Positions 3,991 to 63,940 of a stretch of DNA of 64,000 nucleotides are shown in pieces. Location: contig WBMV01006289.1 of the NCBI GenBank assembly GCA_013396655.1, forward strand, positions 2,001,160-2,065,159, in the 5' to 3' direction. Under the pieces are notes generated by a model. The model ran no database searches. It worked only from the letters and a program-made list of their open reading frames with translations, and was not told where the DNA came from. Numbering within the stretch: the stretch's first letter is position 1; the number at the start of each line of letters is the position of its first letter. A program made the translations under genes and the position numbers. This stretch comes from Campylorhamphus procurvoides. Taxonomy: Eukaryota > Chordata > Aves > Passeriformes > Dendrocolaptidae.

Positions 3991-4859
3991 GGATCCCGAG
4001 CAAACAGCTCCCGTGTCCCGGATTGAATCACCTTGTTTATTTTTTTCTGATGTCTTACTGTGCTAATTGACTTGTTTTCTCCAAGGAAAGCCTATCTTTC
4101 CCTCCTTATTACCCACACATAGGTTTGGGGGTTTTTTTGTTGTTGTTTTTTGGGTTTTTTTCCCCCTAGACCAGGAGAGCTCTGCAGGAGACTACGGCTT
4201 GTGGAGGGATCTGCCCCTTTCAAGGGAGATTCCCTTAGCCCTTTGAGTCTCTTTGGTTTTATAGCTATTACTCTCTTATTAAAACACACACATATATACA
4301 ACACATTGATTTCCATCCAAAAGGGCTAATTACATTACTTACAGTAAATAGCAGCCCTGCTGTCCAGGGTCTAGTGTGCCAACAGAGAAAAAAAATCCCG
4401 GCTTATTTCACTTGATTGACTTCATCTTTGTGTGAAATTGTGTTTTATGAGCTGTATTCTGGCACTCGGAGGAATGTAGCAACATTCAATCTGCAAATAA
4501 CATTAATTTTAGCTACTTAAGGGGAAAGAGAAGGGAGGAAACTGGCTGCCTGAATCTTGGGTTACATGGAAGAGGTGACTCGAGGAGCCCCTGAGGATGT
4601 CTCCGGGATGCTTTGGAAAGGAAGTGGGGGCTGGGGTACTTCTTTCACTAGTCGGGCTCGGGTTTGGTGTGGAGTGTCCCCCAGGGAGCAGGGAGCGCAG
4701 GACTGCCGCCAGGAAGATCCTTCAGTAGGGATCGAGGTGTCAGGAAACAGCCGGCAGCTGTTTCAGGGAAAGGCAAGGAAGAGTGGTGTGAAAAGTAAGT
4801 AGGAAAACGGGAAAAGGAGGGGAGGGGGAGCAGAGAGAGAGATTAGACAGGAAGGAATG

Positions 4860-5390: not shown

Positions 5391-5953
5391 CACCCCACCC
5401 ACAGCCCCGACCGTAATGTTTGTCACTGCTTGCCCATCACTAGGGGTTGAGAGGAGTATGACAGGTCTTTGTTGTCTGAATAAAAATCAGCGGCAGCTCA
5501 AGGGAGAGGACTCCTCCTACTAAATTATCAAAAATGGGCTGGCTTTAGTCTCTTAACAAATTGGACAGAGCTCCGGAAAGCAGCAGTCCCAAATCCAACC
5601 TACAGGCACTGGGAACTTTAAAGCAACCAGGGACTGCTGAAAATAGCACTTCTTTTTGCTTTCTTTGTATTCAAAACTATATCCTTTCCCGACCGATTCT
5701 ACTGCCCCAGGTCCAAGCCTCTCCAGTCAGGAGCCCCAGCTCTGCAGAACAGTAACAGATCCTTTAGCTCGCTTTATTATTTTATTTTTAAAACTAATTA
5801 TTATTACATTTTCTCCCCCTTGTTTGTTTTCTGCACATCTTCAGGAAGCCCTCGGTGCTTGTACAAAGAGAAGCTCCTATTGCAACCTCCCTCTCAGCGC
5901 CGTGCGCCTCGGTGTAAACATTTTGGATGATCTAAAGACTCTGGGGTCTGTAT

Positions 5954-6127
5954 ATGGAAATAGTTGGGTGCAGAGCAGAAGAAAATACTTGTCCTTTCCG
6001 TCCCCCAGCCATGCTTTTCCACGGGATCTCCGGAGGCCACATCCAAGGAATCATGGAGGAGATGGAGAGGCGATCCAAGACCGAGTCCCGCCTGGCCAAA
6101 GGGGGACAGATGAACGGCCGAGAAACG
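5954..6127 (+). CDS. LHX9: LHX9 coding exon 1 (residues 1-58)
   Basis: Encodes the N-terminal segment before the LIM domains: MEIVGCRAEENTCPFRPPA, then MLFHGISGGHIQGIMEEMER and a basic stretch to RET. It ends in phase 0 at the donor ACG|GTAAGA (6128). The second half, from M20, is the part shared with LHX2, which starts at the equivalent Met. An acceptor-like CCGTCCCCCAG (5998-6008) lies just before the CC-ATG of M20. The 5' untranslated part continues upstream, but its start cannot be fixed from sequence alone. Confidence 0.96.
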
Positions 6128-9100
6128 GTAAGAAAGAAGCTGACACTCTTTGCAAGGGAATCCCTGCAAGCATGGACCGGCAGCGGGACAGACCCTGGTT
6201 TTGGGGAAGAGAAAGGCGCTGCTTCCCCCTGCCCCTTCCCTGCCACCCCTTGCTTGTCGAAACCCTTCTGAGGCCCCCTGTAAACCCACCCGTAACTCTG
6301 GGTGCTGTGCTGGCCAGGCTCGGTTGTATCTTTTTCTAATCAATGTCGTTGCGTGTGCTCTCTGGAGCAACGGGGAAACTATTTTAAATCGTATCAGGGA
6401 CGGCTTCGCAGTCCTTGCGGTGGAGCAGCTTTTTGCCCCTGTTCAGCCGGCTGCGGCCGCTCTGCCCCTCCGGGCAGGGCTGCAGCTGAAGCTCCCGAGG
6501 TGTGCTTTGCTTTTTTTTCTGCACTCCTGGCACCTCCTAAATTAAACCGCAAACCGCTACTGCTTACTTTTTGTAACTGTTTCGGGTCTGAAGTGTGTGA
6601 TTGGTACAAAGAGGCACCGCTCTCTCTGAACGTTATGTCGGCCGACTACTTTTCTTAGGAGTAACATCTCCTCTTTCCTTAGTCAAAAGGACCAAAGTCT
6701 TCAGAAATGTACTAAGGGATGGCGGAGAAATCGAGTGTCACGCTGGGCTTTGTGCAAGGCGAGATCTCCCTTTCTCCAACTTGTAGGGCTTCCGCCGATC
6801 GCGCCCAAGGCTCTGCACACAAAGTAACGGCCTGGAAAACTGCTTTAAGGCTTTGGGCCAGAGGGTCCTTTCCCCCTTCTCTTAAATAAACTGATGCTTT
6901 GTTATACGAGGATTTGCAATGTAAATTTAACTCGCCTTTTCAACTGCTAAAAAAAAAATAATAAAAAGGGGGCGAGGAACACAACTTTGATTAGAAATGA
7001 ATGCGGAGTTGCCACTTTAAAACAGTTGTGACTTCAGAACAAGACGTTTGGGATTTTTCCCCCCCTGTTACTTATCAGCAAATGCTGCCCCAAGTTTCAC
7101 GGCTGAGCTTTTGTCTCCGTCATCCCTCCATCTCCCTTTGTCCTGAGCGACACTCCTCGTGGGGAGCAGATCAATGGGAACTTGCAGAAGTTTACTGACA
7201 AAAAAAAAGCTGAAACCAGCCTGTGCCACCTTTCTGCCCATGTCCCTGGCCGGGCTGGTGAGCGTTCAGCCCACTGCTTTTTACATCATCCACCTGTCTC
7301 CTTTCTGTTATTCCTGTATTAAATGGCCTGTGTTTCTTTAGAGAAGTAGTTTTGACTGTTTAAATACGGGTGAAGATTTGCCGTAGAATGGGTGCAAGCC
7401 TGAACTTTGTGTCACAAACTTTTGGAACAGCAAAACGGTATTTTCCTGCTTTAAAATGCTGCTCCTCTGAATTGCTCTGAGGTTAGAACGCTAAAGTAAC
7501 GGGGAAGCCTCAGGGTTTAACTTCAGTACCTCAGAAAAGAACGGGCTCTGCTTTTCTTACTGCGGCCTAATCAGTATTGAAATGACATTAGATTTCTAGC
7601 AGAAGTTTACTGGGATAAACACGAAAGCTGAATAGCGGTAAACACTTTACTGGCGGGGATGGTCCCGGCTCCCCCTTAAACTTCCCGCCGGGAGCAGAGT
7701 TTGGTCCCAGAGAGCAGTCTCTTTGTACGAGCCCCGGGCCCTGCGCAGGACCCGTCCCCAGCCCGGCCTGCCTGCCTGTCTTTCTCTCCCTCTCTCATCC
7801 CTTGTGGTGTGGTTGTTTTGCAGAACATGCCCCCCATGAGCCCCGAGAAGCCTGCTTTGTGTGCTGGTTGTGGAGGGAAGATCTCAGACAGATATTACCT
7901 GCTGGCTGTTGACAAACAATGGCACCTCAGGTGTCTTAAGTGCTGTGAATGTAAACTGGCTCTGGAGTCAGAACTCACCTGCTTTGCCAAGGACGGCAGT
8001 ATTTACTGCAAGGAGGATTACTACAGGTACAGCAATCAGTCACCATGGGTTCAAAAGCACATCCCCTCAAAAGGCATTATGAGCCGAAACACTCTTTTCT
8101 CCTCATGGGTTTTCAAAGGTAGCTTTTCGCAGTCAGCAATTCCTTAATCCTGTAAACGTGCTCCCTCCGAAAAGTCTCGCACGTTTAAAAACTGGACGGA
8201 CCGTCAGGGGACGCGCTGACTGAGCATGTGTGGCGGTACACAAACAGGCGAAGGCTCTTCCGCTGCTCGGCGCTTTCCCTCCTTAAACACCACCGTAAGA
8301 CCCAACACAAATTTCCCTCCTCCCGCTGCTTGCCGGTTCTACCGCGGTCCGGGTCCCGCCGCCCCGCCCGGCCCCGGGAGCGGGCACTGCCGATCTGTTC
8401 CTTACGGCTGTGCCGGGGCTCAGCCCCCCTCGGCACTGCTCGTCCTGACCGCACTGCCAGGAGAGCGGGGACCGATCTGCCCTCCCCGTCCCGCCGGAGT
8501 CCGTGCGCACGGGCAGCGGGAGGGCTTTGCCCGAGTCCTGAGACAGTGGGGCAGCTCGGCGGAAAGGGCGAGTCGCTTACCCCGGGACCCCTGCACCGGC
8601 TCCCGGAGGCTGTCCCGGCACCCGCAGGGCCAGAGGCCACAGCCTCTGTCACAGCCGGTGACACGGGCCGTCCTGGGGCCAGACTCCCTCGCGTGGCCCG
8701 GAGAGAAGGCGAGCGGCACCGAGGCGAGCTCTGCCTTTGCCGTTCTAGTTGATGCCCACTTTTCTGTTTCCTTCAGAAGGTTCTCCGTGCAGAGATGTGC
8801 CCGCTGCCACCTTGGGATCTCAGCATCTGAAATGGTCATGAGAGCCAGGGAGTCGGTTTATCACCTGAGCTGCTTCACCTGCACCACCTGCAACAAGACT
8901 CTGACCACGGGCGATCACTTTGGCATGAAGGACAACCTGGTTTACTGCAGGGCCCATTTCGAGTCCCTTTTGCAAGGAGAATACCCCCCTCAGCTGAGCT
9001 ACACCGAGCTGGCTGCCAAGAGCGGAGGGCTGGCCCTGCCTTACTTCAACGGCACTGGCACGGTCCAGAAGGGGAGGCCCAGGAAAAGAAAGAGCCCTGC

Positions 9101-12100
9101 CCTGGGAGTGGACATCGTCAGCTACAACTCAGGTGGGAAACACAGGCTGAGCCTGCCTCCCGCTCCCCCGAACAGAGCGTTCTCGGGCTTCCTCTCAGCT
9201 AGGCAATGCGTGAGTTAGTCAGCCAGGCCAAATCTTGCTTAACCATTGGAAAATCAAACAAACAGCCCTCTGAGGGTTGGAGCGTTTGCAGGAAAGCTAA
9301 CAGCAGCCCTCCTCAAAAGCTGTCTTTGCCTATTAATGTCAAACACCCAAACTTAGCCACTTCCCAGGGTAAAGACAAAAAAAAAAAAGAAAAAAACCTC
9401 AGCCCCTAAAACGCATAGCTCTTTCTCTATAGGAATCTCAGAGATACTGTTATCATTATTTATATTTGATTGACTAAAAGCGTTTCACCACTTAAACTTC
9501 AAATTAGAAGTAACCAAATGAATCAGAAAAAATAGAATAAAAGTTATAGTATACAGATCTTCCAATGTCAAGGTAGTATGCACGTATCCCGATCTAGATA
9601 TTGAATTTATAGTGTTTAATTCTTCAGGCTGAATAATTCTATTTTACTGGCACATAAATAACCAAACTGTACAAGAGGTCAAGGAATAAATGTTGTTGCA
9701 TGTAACTAAACCCTAACAAATGTAATTAAGGAGAACGGTTTCTGTTCTCTCAACAGTAGAAAAGGAGTAAGTGCTGCCCTGTATTAAATATCTTTCCTAA
9801 CTCCAGTCACTTATGTACCCAAACCATGTATAAACAGACAGTGTTAGTGGCCAGAGACAAAGGAGTTTCAGGTATGATCAGGCAGTTGAGGCAAAGTTTC
9901 ATTATGTGGAAGACGAAAGCAGTAAGGGTAAATACGAACTAGCAAACTCCTGACTCCAAAATAATTTTAGCGAAATTTAAGCTCCCGATGGACGGTAACT
10001 GTGGGAAGCAAGAGTGGTGCAAGGTGCTTCTCCGTGAAGTGGGGAGCCGTCCCGGCTGGGGCAGGGAGCCGGGCGCTCCGGTTCCAGGGCTGCGAGCCGC
10101 TGGCCCCACCGGGGAGCCAGGACAGGGGTCAGGGCCTCCCCTTCGACAACCGCGAGTCGATAGCAATGCACCACTGTCGGCCCGGAGATCTCTCCCCTCC
10201 ACCAAGTTCAACCCCCTGCCACTGAGATCCATAAGGAATCCTCCACTGCCCCCCTGCCCTCCCCATCCCTCCCCCGGCACCTCCTCTGGGGCCGCTGGTG
10301 AAACGGGCTTTAGCTGGGAACCAGGGAGCTGTGCAAGGCGATTTCATCTCCTCTGATGCATAGACCTTGGAGCCAGGGTAATCACTGCGCTAATTGTTCC
10401 TTGTTAATTGAAGATGACATTGGAATCCCTGGCTACGGAGCGGCTTCCAATCAATTCTGAAAGCTGCTAAAGAAAAGGGAACCTGTAGCGCAGCCAGAAT
10501 TCATTCAGTCCCGGCTTCGAATGGTGGATTTCCTGTGCGTTCAGCTCTGTGCTATCCCTGGTCCGCACACCATCATCCGAATCCCCAGATTCCTAAAGGG
10601 AAATTTTACTAGGGACAATTTAGCGATAGAATTAGGATCAGAAATTAGGGAAGGGTGAAGAGCTGTGGATAGGATGAAACACCCCTAAAACTTCAGGTCA
10701 GGACTCAAGAGAGACACTATTTGCAAAGGCTGACATAGTTTTTGTGCGCTAGTCTTAAAACTCCCTTTTTTAACAGCAACGGGTCACGTAAGATATTCCA
10801 CTGACTCCAAATGATATTAAAAAGCACTACCCATTATGAAAATACGTTTCACTGCATTGAGATCTCACAGAATCCTCCGGGCAACGGAGAGAGAGAGAAA
10901 AAACCCACCGCCAATAAATCAATAAACGCCCGAATCTGATGCTTTGGACTAGATGGCTAGATGGCTGAGAAATCTATTCTATTAGGGCCGTGATTTTAGT
11001 TCTTTTTTAAGTGTTATCTAGCAATGCCCAGGGTCTCGGGAAAGTACAGTTCGCACTAAACCCTGCACCCAGTGCAAACGACTTCAGCCCGCTGACCCAC
11101 CGCGCTCCACGTTCGGGGGAGGAAAACGAATCTGTAACAATTCCAAAATGAGTTGCGGTAGATGAAATCTCTTCTTGAGAGAATATCTCTAACTAGTTGG
11201 CAGCCGCTTTCCTACGCCCATTTCTCTTTCCCTGCCCGGTGACTCAGTTACTGCTCTTGCACGTAATCGTTTACAAAGGGCAGGCAGTGCACACAAAATT
11301 CGGTGTCGGGGACACGACTGCCGCCTCCCACGGGCGGAGCGGGGCCCCGCAGCCCGGCCGGAGCCCAGGCGGGCCGTGCCCCCTGTCGGGGCGGGGGTCG
11401 CGGTGCCCCCGGCCGGCCGGGACAGCCGGGGGGCCCCGGGCACAGCCCTGCCCCGCACTCCGGCTGTGCCAGGGAGCGCACCCGAGCCGGGACACCGCAC
11501 CCCGTGCCGGCAGCTCCTCACGGGCAGCCAGAGCTGCCTTCTGGCACTCCGTGTTTGGGGGCACAGCGGGTTTAACCTGCCCGGCGAGCCAAGGCGGTGC
11601 CCACCGAAACAGCCACACCCGCGGGGGTCCGTACCCGTGTTCTGAGCCATTGCGGGAAACGAAGCCCACCTCTGAAAACGAAACTCCGACGAAGCTAACA
11701 ACTTCACCCAGCTGAGCATAAGCATGTGTGTTTTCACAGGCCATCCGGCAGGTCCTGGCTCAGATTTGGGTCCACATTTCGTTTCAGGGGAGCTGAGACC
11801 AGGGCCAGAATGGAAAATCAGACCCTGCTGCTGGATCTACAACAGCTTTTCTATTCTGTATTTTGTTTGGCATTTTAATTTCTGTTTCTCAGCTCCTCAG
11901 TTGTAAAGTGGAAACACAACAATAAATAACTCAAAATATTATGAGGTAAAAGTCAGACATACCTGTGAGCTGTCTGGAATTAATGTGAAAAATGGAAGAA
12001 ACTATTCAAAAGTTCTTAAAACATTCAAAGCTTTCTCTATATTACCTCTTATATCATAGAATTAATGTGTATTTTGTGGGAAAGTGTGTTGACTTGCAAC

Positions 12101-15100
12101 TCACAGGATATAGAAACGAGATGGTGAAGTTTTCCCCAGGAAAATATTTGACACAGCTGCTTCTCAAAGAGCTGTTTACTTTGTTTCATTATATATCTCT
12201 GCGTGTGCCTGTGTGAAAAACTATGAAGAGTCCACTTGAAGAATTTTTGGCAAAAAGAAACAAACTGTTCTAGATCCTTAGAAAGCAAAATTAAAAAACC
12301 CTCCAATCCCACTGCAAAGAAATTAACAATAATGTTTTGCCTGATTTTTTGCTTCCCCTTGGTTCTCCAGGAGATAGTATAAAACTGCTCCATGATGTGG
12401 CCAAACTACATAACACTGTTTTACCCATGTAAAACAGAGAATGAGCTGTAACCATTGTATAAACCAGGATTGTCTGAGGATGTTTGGAGCCCTCTTCCCA
12501 TTTTCTCTTGAAAGTAAAAGCTGAAATAAAGTAGATCACAGACAAGAAAAAAAAAAGCAGGACAGAGGAGCCTGAGGAAGTTTGTGTTGCTGCTGTAAAC
12601 CTGAGCAACCCAGGGAAAGCAATACAAACAAGCAGCTTGCAACTCTGAAGAAAAATCTGAGGATGGAATTCTGGTACTCTGATTTATGTCAGCTCATAAG
12701 TTATGGCCCACGCAGTTTGACTGAAGGCAGTGTGATTGCTTGTGAAAACAAGTAGTAAATACAATCCAAATCTGGCCTGATATAGTTTTTAAGGCAACTT
12801 TCAGCTCCTGATATTTTCAGAAGTGTCAACTTAGTTTGTTTGATAGTGCAGATATACTTCTTATCAAGAGTAGAAGCAAAGCTAGCTATAATTAAATATT
12901 CACCTGATTTTCTGTCAAAGTGTTGTCTTACCAGCATCTGTTCATGTTGACTTCTCTTGTGATTCAAAAGAGAAAACACCTTCAAGAAACTTTTTATTTT
13001 CTCCTGGTTTCAAGTTGCTTTGTCTCTAAGTGCTGCTGACATCAATCTCTCTGTATTGTGTACTTTCCCCTCTTTCTCTTTCTGTCTCTCTCTCCCTCTC
13101 CCTTTTTAAATTAGAAGTGGGAATCAGCTAGGCCTTGTAAATGATCCAGTAACTATTGGAAAGCAGTTCGAAAGTCTAAATAAACAATTAATGAAACTCC
13201 ATTTAATTTACAGACATTCTGAAACATTTTTAATTAGATCTTCTTAAATTAATGTTCCCTGCTATGATGACACCATTAATTTTCTTTTGTATGACTGAGC
13301 TATCTTTATGAAGTGAGATCCTAGAAATTGCTAACCCTTCTGTTTAAACTGAAAAGAAAGATGTAGACGTGTTTCTTCCTTTTTTTTTTTGCCAATACTG
13401 TAATTTCTTTCCCCAATATGAAGTAATGATGCCACTATCCCCTAACAGCTGCAACTCTTATATACAATTCACACCCATAAAAGTGTAATCTTAAACAAAC
13501 ATATCTTTCACAGACACTTTGAAAATCCTGAATCTAGAAAATCAGGGAAGCTCTTTCCAAGTTTTGAGACCCTGGTTGCTTGTAGAAATGACCTGAATCA
13601 GTATCAGCTAAGAGCTACTGCTGATTGGGATTGAGGGACTGAATCAAACCTTGATGCAACTGCTTTCTAGACATGTTTTACAGATGAAGGTCTTTGAGCA
13701 ACCAATATAAACTCCCAGGCAGAGTCCAAAAGCATTTATTTTATCAGCAAAAACCCTCAGATTTTACGCTTTCTTGATGAACTGTCATAACAAACTTTTT
13801 ACATTTCTTTTTATAGGTGTTTGTGATTTGGGGAAAAGCTCAGGAACATTCAGAATGCTGGTTTGACCTTTATTATTCTCTCAAGCTAAGAGTGTTTCAA
13901 TGAGTGAGATTTCAAAATCTGAATGAGATTTCAAACGACTCTTTGAATGCCCAAAGCAAAACCATCACCACAGGGGAAAAGACTTGTTAGAAAATAAATG
14001 CCAAAGGAGACAGAACTTTCTAAATCTGCCCTTAGTAGGTACAGGCCTGAGGGACATAGTGTGTTTTAAGAATGGGAAATGATGATATTCTGGATCTTTT
14101 TTGTTTTAATTATCACATCTGTACTTATCCTTGTATGATCTTAGCCCTTCTTTCCTTTCTTGCTTATTCTCTTCCTTCTAAACAGTATGTGACTTGAGAT
14201 TTTTGCCTTAGTTCATTCCTCCTACTTGATTCATGGCCACTAACCCCTTGTTCCACTTTGTTTATTGAACAGGTTGTAATGAGAATGAGGCAGATCACCT
14301 GGACAGAGACCAGCAGCCTTATCCCCCATCCCAGAAGACAAAGCGCATGCGCACCTCCTTCAAACACCACCAGCTTCGTACCATGAAGTCCTACTTTGCT
14401 ATCAACCACAACCCAGATGCCAAGGACCTCAAGCAGCTTGCCCAGAAAACAGGCCTGACCAAGAGAGTTCTGCAGGTAAGAAGCCACATCATAGGCTTGA
14501 CAGAATTTTCCCCTACCCCTGCTAGTCAATAGCATTTCCCTTAATGTGTAACAACAGCAATGTACATAGAAATACCTTTGCTAGGTGTGTCCCTAGTGGG
14601 CGTGCAGAGGGGTATGGTATTCCATGGCATGAGTGCCGAATTTATGTCTTACTGCCCCAAGGCAGCCAAATACAAAAGTGTGATTTATAATTAGTTGCCT
14701 CCTCAACATGAGGAAACTACCTTCAGAGTCCACCAACCCAGTAGATGTCCTGGGATCCACAGTCTCTCTGTGGTGACCTCACTAAGGGCAGAGGTAGCAA
14801 ATATGCTAGTTTTATGCATGCTGGGTGAAGCCTTTGGGCTCCCCAGAAGTAGTTAATGTGGCCCCTCACTAAGAGACCCCCCGATATGTTTGAAGCAAGG
14901 TTTGACCAACGTGATCCTCCAGGACCAGCTGGCTCCTTCTCTCAATGCTTGTTAGGCAACTGTTATCATTAAGGGCCTACATAATCAAAAGTCACTTCCC
15001 TATGAAGGACAGCCTAGCAAATCACGTTAAATAAAACCCTATACTGTGTGTGCTAGCTCAGTGAAGTTGAAGTGAGGTGTGTGTTATATGCAGAGTGCTA

Positions 15101-15925
15101 AGGAAGGGCAGTGATTGAGGTAGAAGGAGAATCTATTACCGGCAATTCCTTGTCCATGTTATATGTCACCTAAAACATTTTCAGTGAACCTTACAGAGCA
15201 GAAAGGCTAGGTGACCCATATCAATAATCTGTATGATAGAGATGGTGTAATTACCCCTCCCTCCTCTTCAGCCTTTTCAGATATTTAAGGCAAACTTTCA
15301 GCCTTGGCAAAAATCTGCTCATTCACCCTTTGCCTCAATCTTTATCACGTGTCTTTACCCCAGAACTACCAAACCCAAGAAACACTACATGGCCATCAAG
15401 AAAGTTCCTTTCCTTTGGGGATTGAATGAGTAGATTTTTCTTGGGCCTGCTCTGAAAGAGCTTGGGCTGTGACTTTCCAGTGAGCACCCGTAGCACTTGG
15501 CCTGTGAGAGGGGCAGAACCGCCAGTAGCAAGAAGAGCTGTAGAATGACTTAGGTGATGTGCCACACAAAAACAAACATCAAAAATGACTTAAAAGCAAG
15601 AAAAGAGACAAAAATAAGCAAAACAAAACAAGCATCGGTAAAGAAATCAATTGGGATTGGTTTGCAGGTTTGGTTTCAAAACGCAAGAGCCAAATTCAGA
15701 AGGAACCTTTTGCGGCAGGAGAATGGGGGTGTCGATAAAGCTGATGGCACCTCACTACCGGCACCGCCCTCAGCAGACAGCGGCGCTCTCACTCCACCCG
15801 GCACTGCGACCACTTTAACAGACCTGACCAATCCCACTATCACTGTAGTGACATCAGTGACCTCTAACTTGGACAGCCACGAATCCGGGAGCCCCTCACA
15901 AACTACCTTAACGAACCTTTTCTAA
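5954..15925 (+). CDS. LHX9: LHX9, LIM/homeobox protein 9, full-length form (five coding exons, 397 aa)
   Basis: LIM-homeodomain transcription factor acting in the nucleus; the family is known for roles in gonad, limb, forebrain and spinal interneuron development. The spliced frame joins 5954-6127, 7824-8026, 8777-9132, 14273-14475 and 15668-15925 (174+203+356+203+258 nt = 397 codons plus TAA), the usual length of the vertebrate protein. LIM1 has zinc ligands C71, C74, H92, C95, C98, C101, C120, D123. LIM2 has C133, C136, H155, C158, C161, C164, C183, H186. A basic KGRPRKRK stretch sits at about 224-231. The homeodomain spans about 267-326, with W314, F315, Q316, N317 in helix 3. The C-terminus is Ser/Thr/Pro-rich and ends SPSQTTLTNLF. 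LHX2 is the nearest paralogue, but the N-terminus (MEIVGCRAEENTCPFRPPA), the SYTELAAKSGGLALPYFNG segment and the VDKADGTSLPAPPS tail are LHX9-type. All four introns are GT-AG. The start is the first ATG of the open frame; M20 (6011) is a plausible second start. Confidence 0.98.
6128..7823 (+). other. LHX9: LHX9 intron 1
   Basis: GTAAGA at the donor, TTGTTTTGCAG at the acceptor, phase 0. The content is mixed single-copy sequence with no coding frame of note and no recognised repeat. An A-run lies near 6949-6960. Confidence 0.95.
7824..8026 (+). CDS. LHX9: LHX9 coding exon 2 (LIM domain 1)
   Basis: Begins after TTGTTTTGCAG at residue 59 (NMPPMSPEKPALCAGC) and carries the whole first LIM domain, with the CXXC...HXXC/CXXC...CXXD pattern complete (C71 to D123). 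It ends in phase 2 at TACTACAG|GTACAG, so Arg126 is split across the intron. The donor has C at +4 (GTACAG) and is the weakest of the gene. Reading on past it hits a stop at about 8147 after an unrelated tail, so splicing is required. Confidence 0.97.
8027..8776 (+). other. LHX9: LHX9 intron 2, with internal CpG-rich block
   Basis: Donor GTACAG, acceptor TTTCCTTCAG, phase 2. The middle part (about 8220-8720) is GC- and CpG-rich, which leaves long chance open frames on both strands. None resembles a protein. An internal CpG island of this kind could be regulatory. Confidence 0.9.
8777..9132 (+). CDS. LHX9: LHX9 coding exon 3 (LIM domain 2 and linker)
   Basis: Begins after GTTTCCTTCAG with AAGG, completing Arg126 and reading RFSVQRCARCHLGISASEMV. 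It contains all eight zinc ligands of LIM2 (C133 to H186), the linker, the basic GRPRKRK motif (about 225-231) and VDIVSYNS. It ends in phase 1 at CTCAG|GTGGGAAA, splitting Gly245. LIM2 together with LIM1 is the docking surface for LDB-type co-factors in this family. Confidence 0.97.
11290..11640. promoter_or_regulatory. Intronic CpG island in LHX9 intron 3
   Basis: High GC with many CG dinucleotides (for example 11320-11420 and 11455-11520), bounded on both sides by ordinary AT-rich intron. Could be an internal promoter, a Polycomb-type island or an antisense RNA start. The sequence does not decide between these. Confidence 0.45.
13170..13290. promoter_or_regulatory. Candidate homeodomain-site cluster in intron 3
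   Basis: Within about 120 bases there are at least six TAAT/ATTA cores (CAATTAATG, TTTAATTT, TTTAATTAG, AAATTAATG, CCATTAATTTT). LHX, POU and other homeodomain proteins bind such cores. AT-rich background makes some expected by chance, so this is only a candidate enhancer. Confidence 0.25.
14273..14475 (+). CDS. LHX9: LHX9 coding exon 4 (linker and homeodomain helices 1-2)
   Basis: Begins after TTTATTGAACAG, completing Gly245 and reading CNENEADHLDRDQQPYPPSQ. It then enters the homeodomain (KRMRTSFKHHQLRTMKSYFA and onward) and stops after RVLQ, homeodomain position 46. It ends in phase 0 at CTGCAG|GTAAGA. The junction therefore sits exactly before recognition helix 3. Exon 4 can join exon 5 (VWFQN, full homeodomain) or the alternative terminal exon at 18999. 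Read-through without splicing would add 17 residues after LQVR... and end at TAG 14530-14532. Confidence 0.97.
14476..15667 (+). other. LHX9: LHX9 intron 4
   Basis: Donor CTGCAG|GTAAGA, acceptor GGTTTGCAG, phase 0. This intron is removed to make the full-length protein. For the alpha form, the same donor instead joins 18999, skipping exon 5 and its untranslated region. No repeat or other gene is recognised inside. Confidence 0.93.
15668..15925 (+). CDS. LHX9: LHX9 coding exon 5 (homeodomain helix 3 and C-terminus)
   Basis: Begins after GGTTTGCAG at VWFQNARAKFRRNLLRQENG, providing the DNA-recognition helix with W, F and N at homeodomain positions 48, 49 and 51. The C-terminal tail is rich in Ser, Thr and Pro, with repeated TLTDLTN/TVVTSVTSN-like segments, and closes with TLTNLF and TAA (15923-15925). 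The same terminal hexapeptide closes LHX2. Confidence 0.97.
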   Translation, partial: VWFQNARAKFRRNLLRQENGGVDKADGTSLPAPPSADSGALTPPGTATTLTDLTNPTITVVTSVTSNLDSHESGSPSQTTLTNLF

Positions 15926-15933
15926 CATTTTAG

Positions 15934-16062
15934 TTTTTTTTTTTTTTAATTCTTACTCTTCATTATTATTATTATAATTATTATAATTATTATTATTATT
16001 TTCAAGCCTTTTTTAAAAAAACAAAAAACAAACCAACAAACAAACCCACAAAATATTTGGGA
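15934..16062. repeat. T-run, ATT microsatellite and A-rich tract
   Basis: T14 at 15934-15947, then imperfect ATT/ATA repeats at 15962-16001, then an A-rich tract with AAAC units up to about 16052. Low-complexity sequence in the LHX9 3' untranslated region. Confidence 0.9.
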
Positions 16063-16130
16063 AAATAAACAGCTTGATGTGTAGCATCTGCAGCCACTTG
16101 GCAAATGAGTTTGAAGTAATATGTTGCTAT

Positions 16131-16136
16131 AATAAA
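16131..16136 (+). terminator. AATAAA polyadenylation signal, proximal LHX9
   Basis: AATAAA followed within 10-25 bases by a TTATTGTTGTTAAATTGT stretch that fits a GU/U-rich downstream element. It is a reasonable proximal 3' end, 206 bases after the stop. A second AATAAA lies just upstream at 16064-16069. Confidence 0.5.
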
Positions 16137-18459
16137 TGAACATTTATTGTTGTTAAATTGTATTCAAATTTTTTAAATTCATCAAATGACTGAAGAGAAG
16201 GTTATGACTCATTCTCATAAGTGCCTCTTAAAATTGTATGTTACTTATTTCCAGAACCTTGAAAAAAATTGTTATTACAAAAAAAAAAAAAGATTCTTTC
16301 CCTCCTTGATAACCACATAAAAACCAGCACAAAAAGAATGCTGTTTCAGGATTGTATATTCACTTGCAGCATTTAGGAACCCTAAATTTAATTTCAGTTT
16401 TATAATGCATCTAAAAGTTTTGTATGATTTATTTTTTAAATGTCAAATAATAAATACAAAATTAATGCAACTAATAATTGAAAGAGACTGGAAGTGCCAG
16501 TGCTCTTTTCTAATGCTTTAGTCCCAAGCCTGATCCTCCCTGAGCACTGGGGATCTCACTGGGATAGCTAAAGGCTCCTCTGCCAGTTCTTCACCCAGCT
16601 GGGACGTCCTTGGCCACCACTGAAAGCCATGCCTGGATGGAGGGCTTGGAGAGAGAGACCCAGTGATGAGAGTGCATGTGAGTGAGGATGGCAGGATCAG
16701 GCTGTTGGTCTCCAAATTTGTGTCCTGGACACTAAGAAGACAAGATCTGGAAAAAACCCACCAGAATGAGCTCCCTCCTAGAAGGATATTATTAAAGTAA
16801 TAATAGCAGAATAACGATGCAGGTGAGGAGTCCTACTGATCTGAAATATTGCATAGGGAGCTGGTTTCATTTTTGTCTGTCAAGCAGCTCTGATTTGGAA
16901 TTTGAAAAAATAAAAATTGCAGTTTGCTACATGGCTTTGATGCCATACCATCCAAGCACACAGGAGGTTGCCCAGCTACTTTAGTGAACACAAAAGTAAT
17001 TTTCAAGAAGGGATATGCATGTGTACTATTCAACAAATTTTGATAAATCCTACCCTTTTTCTTTTTTTCAGGGAAAATGGAAATAAGCAAAATATAATTT
17101 ATTAAGATGTTTAAGGAAAAAGTTATTTCAGTACAATTTATTCATTAGTATTTTGAATTTATTTTAGATGTTTCCTGAGATTGTATCAGACACTTTGTTT
17201 AACACAGGAACTTAAAATATTTAGTTCATTAATATCTCTAACACTTTCTAAACTTTGTATTAAAGAAAAAACTGTTAACAAAAATCATACAAGACCAGGA
17301 ATTGGCAGTGAATAACTCCAAAGCCGATAAACTCAGAAGCCTTGTGGATGCTGATCTGAATACATTTCTTAGTTTACAATAGCGATCTTTCTTTTTTTTT
17401 TTTTTTTTTTAGTTTTATTTAAGCTAAAAGTCTGAATGGTCTGGGCAGTGGTGAATGTTCATTTGTATCCTTTTATTGTAGTTGAACACCAATTAGATTG
17501 TGGAGAGTCTCAGAAACAAAAACAAACAAAAACCAGTCAAGATCTATGTCTTGCTTTTAGTGGATTGTTAAGAATAACTTTGCACATATACCCCACTTTT
17601 TAGACACCATCAAACCTCTTTTTGGTGGTCAAAGTGGCTATTTAATATATTTTAAAGGTGTCCTTTTTGGCTGTATAAATGTGTGGTTACATATTGACAG
17701 TTCACTGCCCACATTAAAGTGCATTATTGTAATTTTTGCTCAGGGTTTTTAGAAAATTAGCACAGAAAAGTAGCTTATTTTTAAAAAAAGATGACGGAAG
17801 AGATGTTAACACTGTAATAGAAGAAAGGTGTGTTTGCCATTATATATTTAGCAAGTATGGTTATCATCTTCTACGGATATTGAATCTTGACTTTTCCTAT
17901 TTCTATTACCTTATGGGCATTTACCACTAACCAGACCAAACGACCTTGGTAAGGCTGAGATCTTTATTAATACACTTTTACAGGTAAAAATATTGATACT
18001 TATAAATTTTGTTCTTTGACAGAACAATATATGGTACTAGAGATCTACTTTATTAAGTAGACTAATTAAAACTCAGTTCTACTATGTGCCTTATGATATA
18101 CCTTGGGAGTAAGTTTGTGAAAAATCAGGATATATGTGTTGTTTGTTAAATTAACTGTTTTAAGCCCTTTTGACACCTCACTAGTTTTGTACTGTTTTAC
18201 CTCTTATTTCTGAAACTCTTTTTATGGTGTATCCTGTTAGAGGGGACAAACATGTCATAGAAAGCAGTTGTGCACTCTTTCAGATATAGTTGATAAATCC
18301 AATAATCTTATATATTGAGCTTCGTGTTTATAGTACAGTAAGTGGTCTAGCAAAATTGTCCATGTTTCTTTGTTTATTGATAAATGCATTGTATAGAAAC
18401 TATTTCCCCTAAATATTTATGGACCAAACAATTGTGATATATCCTATTAAATTTGTGTG

Positions 18460-18465
18460 AATAAA
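18460..18465 (+). terminator. AATAAA polyadenylation signal, distal LHX9
   Basis: AATAAA followed by a GTTGTTGGGGTTTTTTTCC tract about 45-65 bases on, the best-looking distal cleavage context before the alternative exon. A transcript ending here would exclude the alternative terminal exon at 18999. Confidence 0.5.
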
Positions 18466-18998
18466 CCATTTTGAATCTAAGGAGTTTTATTTCCCATCAG
18501 TTTTTCGTTGTTGGGGTTTTTTTCCTTTTTTTTTCGTTCTCTTTTTTCTTTTCTTTTTTTTCCCCTTTTTAAAAATATTTAAAGTCTACGTGTACCAGTG
18601 CGTCTCTTTACTTTTACAGTACCTATGAACAATTGGTACTAAACACAGAAACACGGCCTTTTAAATATTTTAAAATATGGTTCCTTCTTAGGTTTTCAGT
18701 TTCTTCATATTCAGTGTATATGCTACTGCTGGTGCAATTTAGATTTTAGCTTTTTAGCCTCCCTTTTTGAACATGCAAAGTAATGCCCCACTGATTTGTT
18801 ATTGAAACCCTGTCTTAGACTTCTAAAAAAGCCAGAAAACTTGCAGCTAAAGTAATTGCATGACAAATATAACCTAAATAGTATGATGAAATGAATCAAG
18901 ATTTAATGCTAGGTATATTGAACACAAAATAGAATTGCAGACCCCGAAAAGCCAGGTTGCTCTGTAGTTTAATAAATTGTCACTATGATTTCTTTCAG

Positions 18999-19055
18999 GG
19001 AGAACAAATCATGGGGCATTACAGCCAAACATCCCGACGTTTGAAAATTCCCTAA
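18999..19055 (+). CDS. LHX9: LHX9 alternative terminal coding exon (Lhx9-alpha type, 18 residues)
   Basis: After a good acceptor (TGATTTCTTTCAG, AG at 18997-18998) the sequence reads GEQIMGHYSQTSRRLKIP and TAA (19053-19055). I recognise this as the tail of the truncated-homeodomain isoform of mammalian LHX9, which I recall as identical apart from L in place of M at position 5. Phase 0 joins it directly to exon 4 (Q312), giving a 330-residue protein. That protein keeps both LIM domains and homeodomain helices 1-2 but lacks the WFQN recognition helix, so it should bind LIM partners without normal DNA binding. The exon lies 3.1 kb downstream of the main stop, beyond several polyadenylation signals, so use of this exon also depends on 3' end choice. 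Confidence 0.9.
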   Translation, partial: GEQIMGHYSQTSRRLKIP

Positions 19056-19680
19056 AGTATTAAAAGAAGGGGAAAAGTTTGATCGGAAATCCACTGCAGT
19101 GAAGACAAAGACAATATTAGGTTATGATAATCATACATTTAAAAATCTATTGAGCCAAAAAATAAAAATAAAAGACTTGATGTCATTTCCTGAATGTTAA
19201 GAAAACATATGTTATTTTACCGTGTCTAATTAACAGAACTGAAGGCTTCAACAAATTGTGTGGTATCAAAAAGAAATTTAGAGAAACTATGTATAAAACC
19301 AGAGCAACCTGGCAGCAATCTACCCAGCCCATATTCGACGAAACCTTTTCTTTAAAAGCAAAAATCACATTTGTCAAGCACAAGTACTTGTAAAATAAAA
19401 TCTGAGTGCATTCATTCCACTTGCTTGCTAATGTGTACTAGTCATATCTGTTAAATGGATTTTTGTAAATTCAAAGAGAACTTTTCACTCATCCAAGACC
19501 ATAGGAATCAAAACCCAGTAACTTTAGTACTATTGTTTCCGGATTAATTTTTTTTTAAATGAGACAAATCTGCATGCACTTTGCCATCTGTCACATATAG
19601 TGTACATTTCTGTATGATGAATTTCTCTTTGATGTTTCTTGTATGGTAGCTTTCATTAATAAACATTTTATTTGATGCAA
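19056..19680 (+). other. LHX9: 3' untranslated region of the LHX9 alpha transcript
   Basis: Noncoding AT-rich sequence after the TAA of the alternative exon. It ends near an AATAAA at 19658-19663 that is followed by T-rich sequence (CATTTTATTTG). No other coding potential on the + strand. Confidence 0.55.
19658..19663 (+). terminator. AATAAA polyadenylation signal for the alpha terminal exon
   Basis: Sits about 600 bases after the alternative stop codon in a CATTAATAAACATTTTATTT context. It is a plausible gene end. Its reverse complement neighbourhood (TTTATT at 19668-19673) could serve a convergent minus-strand transcript. Confidence 0.4.
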
Positions 19681-19861
19681 ACATAGTTAACTTTATGTAA
19701 ACACATAGCTAATTGTTCCAACTAATTTAAAATTTTCTTTTGAAAAGAAGCAGTACAGTGCAGTTCTAATATGCTATATATATTTAAAATCAAAAAGAAT
19801 GAGGTAGCAATACTGTTGCACAGCATAAAATTATTTCGTTTGGTATTAACATTTTAATTTT

Positions 19862-20418
19862 TTAACTTCCTATATAAATATGACATTTTACAAAGAAATT
19901 CCCATCAGCATCAACAATAAAACAATCCCCAAATTCTTCATCAATATAAGAAACACGAGCAGTACAGTATGTAAAATCCTCAATGACTTTTAGAGTACAA
20001 GGATATGATTTGTGGATCCCAGAGCTGTTTACAAGGTCACTATGCAATGAACAAGTATGCTACAGAAAGTTGCTCCTGAGATTCCCAGCCCAAATCACAG
20101 ATGATTTTTACAAGCCAACAAGCAAGTGTAACAATAACCAAGTCTTAGTAATGAGGTTTTGTAACTGTTAAGCAACTATTTGCAGAAAGATTTTTTTAAA
20201 ATATATTCCTGTTTAGCTGTATAGCCAAAGCATATGTTAAACAAATTAACATATAAAAGATTTGCCAGAAAATCTTTCATTAAGATGACATTTTTATTAT
20301 ATACTAATGAACCCTATGTAAACAATGTAACTTTTATGAATGATGGACATTAAATATTTCACTTACGTGTATCCTCAGCATTTTGCATGTTTTCTTAAGC
20401 TTTTCCAGTTTCAGAATT
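19862..20418 (-). other. Unidentified possible two-exon minus-strand 3' gene end
   Basis: On the minus strand a strong acceptor (TGATTTTCTTTTTAG) is followed by a 52-base segment (20418-20367) open in one frame (ILKLEKLKKTCKMLRIH) and a strong donor, CAC|GTAAGT. About 300 bases further on, CTTTCTGTAG at 20062-20060 opens a frame in the matching phase that runs 66 codons (65 residues plus stop) to TAA at 19862 and includes YIDEEFGDCFIVDADGNFFV. If real, it would be the 3' end of a gene converging tail-to-tail on LHX9. I do not recognise the protein. Chance frames of this length are common here, an acceptor-like TAG precedes any frame opened by that stop, and no convincing upstream exon with matching phase was found. 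Confidence is therefore low. Confidence 0.15.
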
Positions 20419-43135: not shown

Positions 43136-43157
43136 NNNNNNNNNNNNNNNCCCCCCC
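43129..43157. repeat. Poly-C run interrupted by a 15-base assembly gap
   Basis: C residues flank 15 unknown bases (43136-43150) on both sides. The gap sits inside a C homopolymer, so it probably reflects sequencing failure in the run. The true length is unknown. Confidence 0.9.
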
Positions 43158-62959: not shown

Positions 62960-63940
62960 TGGGTATTTTGATACGCCTTGTGCCCAGACCTGGGCGGGCC
63001 CCAGGCTTAGCCCGGCGCTGCCCGCGGCACTGCGGGGCGGTCCAGGCCCCGGGGCGGGCGGTTCTGCCCCGNCCCCCGCCGTTCTCACGGAGCCCGGCTC
63101 GGGAAGGCCCCGCCGTGCTCGGTGCTGGGACCCCCAAAGGATCGGGCTCCCTGATCCCGGGCACAGCGCTGGCCTCCTCCCCCGGAGCCGCCGGCTGCCC
63201 GCACAGGGCTGCGGGACGGCCNNNNNNNNNNNNNNNNNNNNNNNNNNNNNNNNNNNNNNNNNNNNNNNNNNNNNNNNNNNNNNNNNNNNNNNNNNNNNNN
63301 NNNNNNNNNNNNNNNNNNNNNNNNNNNNNNNNNNNNNNNNNNNNNNNNNNNNNNNNNNNNNNNNNNNNNNNNNNNNNNNNNNNNNNNNNNNNNNNNNNNN
63401 NNNNNNNNNNNNNNNNNNNNNNNNNNNNNNNNNNNNNNNNNNNNNNNNNNNNNNNNNNNNNNNNNNNNNNNNNNNNNNNNNNNNNNNNNNNNNNNNNNNN
63501 NNNNNNNNNNNNNNNNNNNNNNNNNNNNNNNNNNNNNNNNNNNNNNNNNNNNNNNNNNNNNNNNNNNNNNNNNNNNNNNNNNNNNNNNNNNNNNNNNNNN
63601 NNNNNNNNNNNNNNNNNNNNNNNNNNNNNNNNCCGCCCGGGGTGCGTGTCCGGCGGGCGCTGCCGGGAGCGGCCCGGGGCTGTCTCGGGCACGGCTGGAA
63701 ACAGCGCCGACCCCGGGAGCCCCGGCCCGGCGGGGACAGCGCGGGGAGGGCTGGAAGGGTGTCCCGTCCAGCCCGGGATGGGTGTCCCGTGCTCCGTGTG
63801 TCGGGGTGTCCCCGCTCCGGGCCCTGGCCCAGCACCCCGTCCCGGTGCTGTGTCGGTGCGGGCAGTGCCTGCCCGGCCTTGGCGTTCTCAGCGCTGCCCT
63901 GTCCGTGGGACGCGCTTCCTGCGGCTCTGCTCATCACTTC
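62960..63940. promoter_or_regulatory. CpG island with assembly gap, probable promoter of the next gene
   Basis: Very high GC with dense CG dinucleotides on both sides of a 411-base gap (63222-63632), plus a single unknown base at 63072. The change from AT-rich desert is abrupt. In other amniotes NEK7 follows LHX9 and has a noncoding first exon, so a NEK7 promoter is the leading guess. No kinase coding sequence or other gene-specific signal is visible. The long frames on both strands cross the gap and have island-type composition (Pro, Arg, Gly, Ala), so they are not genes. Confidence 0.55.
63222..63632. other. Assembly gap, 411 unknown bases
   Basis: A run of N inside the CpG island. Such gaps in bird assemblies usually reflect extreme GC content. 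Part of a first exon could be hidden here. Confidence 0.99.

Follow-up and report, generated by a model that had tools for sequence, protein, structure and literature searches.

An alternative last exon of LHX9 in Campylorhamphus procurvoides and the truncated form it would encode

Positions 18999-19055 on the + strand of the window (the whole 64,000-nucleotide stretch of Campylorhamphus procurvoides DNA analysed here) most probably represent the coding part of an alternative last exon of LHX9, making the form known as Lhx9alpha or Lhx9a, a reading to which we assign a probability of about 0.93. The identity of the exon is close to certain, while the way in which the alpha form acts is unsettled. 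The exon is also useful as a reagent check: a published result credited to a DNA-binding factor probably came from a form that cannot read DNA normally.

The alternative exon was already known, including in chicken. The portions of PMC9310833 (Dev Dyn 2022) consulted here print GEQIMGHYSQTSRRLKIP as the chicken tail, taken from a cDNA clone of limb, give the mouse tail with an L, and place the alternative end in mammals, birds, fish and reptiles, with the transcript confirmed by RT-PCR in mouse and chicken. An antibody against the tail was applied there to chick and mouse embryos and stains the chick spinal cord, limb and urogenital ridge; its specificity was checked, and the signal is lost in Lhx9 mutant mice.

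Position of the exon in the gene

The window carries the LHX9 gene on its + strand. The coding part of exon 1 (5954..6127) starts with MEIVGCRAEEN and ends at a GTAAGA donor; exon 2 (7824..8026) and exon 3 (8777..9132) hold the first and second LIM domains, respectively. Exon 4 (14273..14475) encodes the first part of the homeodomain, terminates in ...TKRVLQ and has the donor CAG/GTAAGA, and canonical exon 5 (15668..15925) supplies the remainder, from VWFQNARAKFRR to TLTNLF and the stop. The canonical join amounts to 1,194 nt, for a protein that ends in TLTNLF. Published mouse primers agree with this layout: the Lhx9alpha start primer matches exon 1 at 5954 (3/24 mismatches), another matches exon 2 at 7890 (5/24, all five altered codons being synonymous), and two match exon 5, at 15682 (1/22) and 15786 (0/21).

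Directly downstream of the acceptor TTTCTTTCAG, 18999-19055 translates as GEQIMGHYSQTSRRLKIP followed by a stop. Joined to exon 4, it continues in phase 0 and gives a coding sequence of 993 nt, that is, 330 residues plus the stop. The first-pass annotation had proposed these limits and this phase, both of which the translation and the joined sequence bear out, and had placed the exon about 3.1 kb past the main stop; the latter ends at 15925, some 3.07 kb away. Its description of the acceptor as good needs qualifying. Scored with an approximate position matrix, the acceptor at 18999 ranks 89th among the 4,301 AG sites of the window and 7th among the 261 lying in 15926-20400; it exceeds the acceptors of exons 2, 4 and 5 and falls below that of exon 3. 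It is therefore fair, not outstanding, since six of the 261 nearby AG sites outscore it, and for the same reason we dropped acceptor strength as evidence for the exon.

The 3′ end can be placed with the help of the mouse primers. The primer for the far end of the mouse alpha/beta 3′ UTR matches 19664-19685 with 1/22 mismatches, directly after an AATAAA at 19658..19663 that is probably the poly(A) signal of the alternative exon; we therefore infer an exon of about 687 nt, whose untranslated part would run over 19056..19685, with its 3′ end near 19685. Several other UTR primers (1146F and ab R1 of the mouse alpha/beta 3′ UTR, and those of the canonical 3′ UTR) have no convincing match in the window, and UTR conservation thus appears to be patchy. 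The best match in the window for the primer of the mouse beta first exon has 9/25 mismatches, and no Rfam family matches within the window. The chicken Lhx9ab primers listed in PMC9310833 match exactly at 19002-19025 and 19584-19610. Because both primers lie within one exon, the chicken RT-PCR, as described in the portions consulted, shows the exon in cDNA, not the splice junction, and does not separate cDNA from genomic DNA by size.

In the proposed alternative mRNA, exon 4 would join 18999 rather than 15668, leaving out exon 5, and the transcript would stop at the 19658 poly(A) signal. The predicted protein would retain its two LIM domains and the beginning of the homeodomain, with 18 residues in place of the recognition helix and C-terminal region. 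Domain matches agree with this prediction. Indeed, residues 147-269 of Corvus P0001, which carries PF00412 in its precomputed annotation, match solved LIM pairs of LIM-HD proteins with LDB1, and the window protein equals Corvus P0001 over 311 residues, so both LIM domains are retained. Residues 344-390 of P0001 match the LHX9 homeodomain 2dmq only up to residue 52 of the 80 in the chain, which is the end of exon 4; the homeodomain is cut there, and the rest of it, including VWFQNARAKFRR, is encoded in exon 5. PMC9310833, in the part consulted, names helix 3 as the portion lost. The earlier proposal that helix 3 is lost and the LIM domains kept is thereby upheld. An AlphaFold2 model of Corvus P0001, built on a 19-row alignment, is too poor to inform on the tail (mean pLDDT 39.2, tail below 50).

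Other features of the window may be recorded here. At 5514-5537, some 420 nt upstream of the start codon, the window contains, with 0/24 mismatches, the stretch that surrounds the GATA site in the mouse Lhx9alpha promoter, taken with the wild-type letters that PMC2447832 describes in the part consulted; that paper reports the site as one of GATA4/FOG2 repression. At 4566-4793 lies an open frame, MEEVTRGAPEDVSGMLWKGSGG..., similar to the N-termini in the gene models of Corvus, Columba and Pezoporus; it may be an alternative 5′ exon. When it is joined on trial to 5845-5911 and 6009, the reading frame stays open into MLFHG, but the middle part of the join mismatches the Corvus model. Positions 327-440 encode GTTSIYWLNHCVSSPSKTHPSS..., similar to the N-terminal end of P0010, the alligator LHX9 model, but run into a stop; a conserved 5′ UTR exon is a likelier reading here than a coding one. 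From 19700 to 64000 there are 23 mechanically called ORFs of at least 90 codons, the longest of which spans an assembly gap (N run) at 63222-63632; smaller N runs lie at 43136-43150 and 63072.

Conservation of the tail

Residues 291-330 of the spliced protein, used as the query of a homologue search, retrieved 34 clusters among 618 candidates, and all 34 sequences were examined. The full 18-residue tail is found in 21 of them, from birds to a chimaera; one more (P0021) has 14 tail residues and then ends, and 12 lack the tail. The tail-bearing clusters sum to 603 member sequences, of which the representatives were compared, and many of the entries are gene predictions. From MLFHG on, the window protein is identical to Corvus at 311 of 311 positions, to Columba at 310, to alligator at 306 and to the elephant-named cluster at 297. 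No LHX2-type cluster among the 34 hits of this single search bears the tail, and we rejected its presence in the LHX2 paralogue; PMC9310833, in the part consulted, likewise reports the alternative tail in Lhx9 only.

The tail pattern of Lhx9alpha, GEQI(L/M)GHYSQTSRRLKIP, is present in the window exon. The exact bird tail (18/18) occurs in clusters P0001-P0003, named for Corvus, Columba and Pezoporus, which are the only three of the 21 with M at position 5. Fifteen clusters, including alligator, mammals, ray-finned fishes and Callorhinchus, have L there, and three frog clusters have S. Since alligator has L, the M probably arose on the bird line, as judged from a sample in which ostrich-like birds are not included by name; the change is a single transversion, TTG in mouse and ATG in the window. 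Position 10 is H in 6 of the 21 clusters (five ray-finned fish and Callorhinchus), and position 7 is Y in two bat clusters. The frog tail, GEQCSGFNSHTTRRLKIP, shares 12/18 residues with the bird tail, and frogs keep its frame, length, ends and stop despite the 6/18 changes. The exon had been identified by its likeness to the mammalian alpha tail, as a version with M for L at position 5 conserved in birds; the protein clusters and the chicken tail printed in PMC9310833 agree with that identification, and the mammalian L is found both in that paper, in the part consulted, and in the mammalian clusters.

Could the frame nevertheless be a chance one, or a dead relic? Open frames of such length are indeed common: 86 of the 261 AG sites in 15926-20400, that at 18999 included, are followed by at least 18 open codons. 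The survival of an intact 19-codon frame, which the first-pass annotation took as a sign of function, therefore carries no weight by itself, and we rejected it as evidence. The match to bird proteins, and to the chicken tail in print, is another matter. It is 18/18 at 18999, against at most 7/18 elsewhere in the six frames of the window and at most 8/18 in 20 mononucleotide shuffles; it is far beyond chance, and homology effectively rules out a chance frame or relic. A different reading, in which conservation is mainly that of the nucleic acid (a splicing enhancer, a UTR or an enhancer element) and the peptide is incidental, starts from the scarcity of silent changes. Sixteen codons of the alternative exon, counting the stop, fall under published mouse primers, and over these bird and mouse show 0 synonymous differences and one changed codon (TTG to ATG, L to M). 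In the primers of exons 1 and 2, 8/16 codons changed synonymously (Fisher p 0.002 against the alternative exon; p 0.022 for the stop-codon primer alone, whose position is fixed by the stop), and the 3′ end of the UTR is near-identical too (21/22). However, the exon 5 primers are about equally conserved, with 1/13 codons changed, and the alternative exon is indistinguishable from exon 5 in this respect; against all three exons p is 0.017, in a small sample, where conserved sequence may have guided the placing of one primer or primer pair. The counts hint that the nucleic acid is constrained in addition to the peptide. That the peptide itself matters is argued by the frog tails, which alter 6/18 residues and yet retain frame, length and stop, and by the tail-specific antibody signal reported in chick and mouse embryos and lost in Lhx9 mutant mice. 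We consider conservation of the nucleic acid with an incidental peptide improbable. The synonymous-bias test that had been proposed for this exon may fail for lack of synonymous changes.

A published 'Lhx9' plasmid and the action of the alpha form

PMC9561852 describes, in the parts consulted, the forced expression of 'Lhx9' in chick spinal cord, mouse retina and mouse cortex. Once its cloning tail is set aside, the Lhx9 reverse primer given there reads as the reverse complement of 19032-19055 (0/24 mismatches), a segment that encodes the final seven residues of the alternative exon and its stop; within the canonical coding sequence of the window, the primer matches nothing more closely than with 11/24 mismatches. 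A primer of the same core is labelled Lhx9alpha in the part of PMC2447832 consulted. A reverse primer ending at the stop of the alternative exon argues that the construct is most likely the truncated alpha form, as read from a mouse primer compared with a bird window rather than with mouse genomic sequence, and allowing that the primer list could be miscopied or that a product of more than 4 kb might in theory come from a canonical transcript whose 3′ UTR is very long. In a term search, the words isoform, truncat, homeodomain and Lhx9a were absent from PMC9561852. PMC2704203, an earlier study in chick, worked with a chick Lhx9 clone and, in the part consulted, leaves its form unstated; the word isoform is absent there. 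Our searches of open-licence PMC papers turned up no discussion of the isoform question for the plasmids of either study.

In chick spinal cord the construct increased ipsilateral and decreased commissural axons (3 embryos versus 5 controls), and ipsilateral axons also rose in mouse retina (11 versus 6) and cortex (5 versus 4), where Lhx2 acted in the same direction as 'Lhx9' and more strongly. PMC9561852, as far as consulted, explains midline avoidance by Lhx2/9 binding DNA. We propose instead that midline avoidance after forced 'Lhx9' was produced by the truncated alpha form, devoid of the recognition helix, a proposal whose chances we put at about even. If it is true, the alpha form would itself be an active switch of axon laterality, with no DNA contact of its own. 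The reagent point also means that the action of Lhx9alpha could be addressed directly in chick embryos, by comparing constructs side by side.

The mechanism that we favour would operate through the LIM domains. The alpha form would join LIM-HD/LDB complexes while contributing no DNA contact, and as it enters them it would shift which of these complexes reach DNA. According to the part of PMC2447832 consulted, LHX9alpha co-precipitates with ISL1 in HEK293 cells, and not with CITED2, and the LIM residues of Corvus P0001 match LIM pairs solved with LDB1. This account could about equally well be right or wrong, and a function independent of competition ranks close behind it. Competition for LIM co-factors is itself an old hypothesis for which the evidence is mixed, and it is disputed in the parts of PMC9310833 and PMC2447832 consulted.

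Its strictest version makes the alpha form a plain, LMO-like dominant negative, taking the LDB co-factor and lowering LHX2/LHX9 output. The loss of helix 3 with retention of the LIM domains speaks for this version, and the alpha form does not bind DNA in vitro, as reviewed in the part of PMC9310833 consulted. Double loss of LHX2 and LHX9 in mouse disturbs midline crossing (PMC9310833, PMC9561852, as consulted), and if the plasmid is alpha, the axon shift in chick spinal cord goes in the direction expected from LHX2/LHX9 loss and fits lowered LHX2/9 function. The agreement between Lhx2 and the 'Lhx9' construct in retina and cortex, with Lhx2 the stronger, does not fit a simple dominant negative, however, unless excess Lhx2 also ties up LDB. 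Moreover, earlier culture work cited in PMC9310833 is described there as showing no such effect: Lhx9a did not lower neural differentiation but itself promoted it, and was not dominant negative. PMC2447832, in the part consulted, also cites the LHX9 isoforms as not directly competing. We find the plain dominant negative rather doubtful. The same culture data speak for a positive function of the alpha form, exerted through the LIM domains or the new tail and apart from competition. In the embryonic mouse heart the alpha/beta forms stand 30 to 50 times above the canonical form, so that there would be little to compete with (PMC2447832, as consulted), and even the frog tails, with 6/18 differences from the bird tail, preserve its length and ends. 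On the other side, no partner of the tail is reported in the literature consulted, and the tail is of low confidence in a structure model that is itself poor. Such a function seems to us a serious possibility, if less than an even one, and the change in LIM-HD/LDB complexes brought about through the LIM domains is the reading that we retain.

Comparison with known LIM proteins

Three known systems resemble the one described here. The closest is Lhx9alpha/Lhx9a, or Lhx9ab, of mouse and chicken, as described in the parts of PMC9310833 and PMC2447832 consulted. The window exon shares its position and phase, and its tail agrees with the printed chicken tail at 18/18 residues and with the mouse tail at 17/18. 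The coding length of 993 nt is also common to the window form and mouse Lhx9alpha, for which PMC2447832 gives 330 residues and a cDNA of 993 bp, along with a description of Lhx9beta. We found no difference from known Lhx9alpha, the M for L at position 5 being common to chicken and the other bird clusters.

LHX2, the paralogue, has the same domain plan and the same exon boundary in the homeodomain, at ...RVLQ, and differs in that the tail is absent from the LHX2-type clusters among the 34 hits. The LMO family, like the alpha form, has LIM domains and no working DNA-binding homeodomain, and competition for LDB has been proposed. An LMO protein has no homeodomain sequence, whereas the alpha form retains the first part of the homeodomain and adds a tail of its own; it arises by splicing from a LIM-HD gene and is not the product of an LMO gene.
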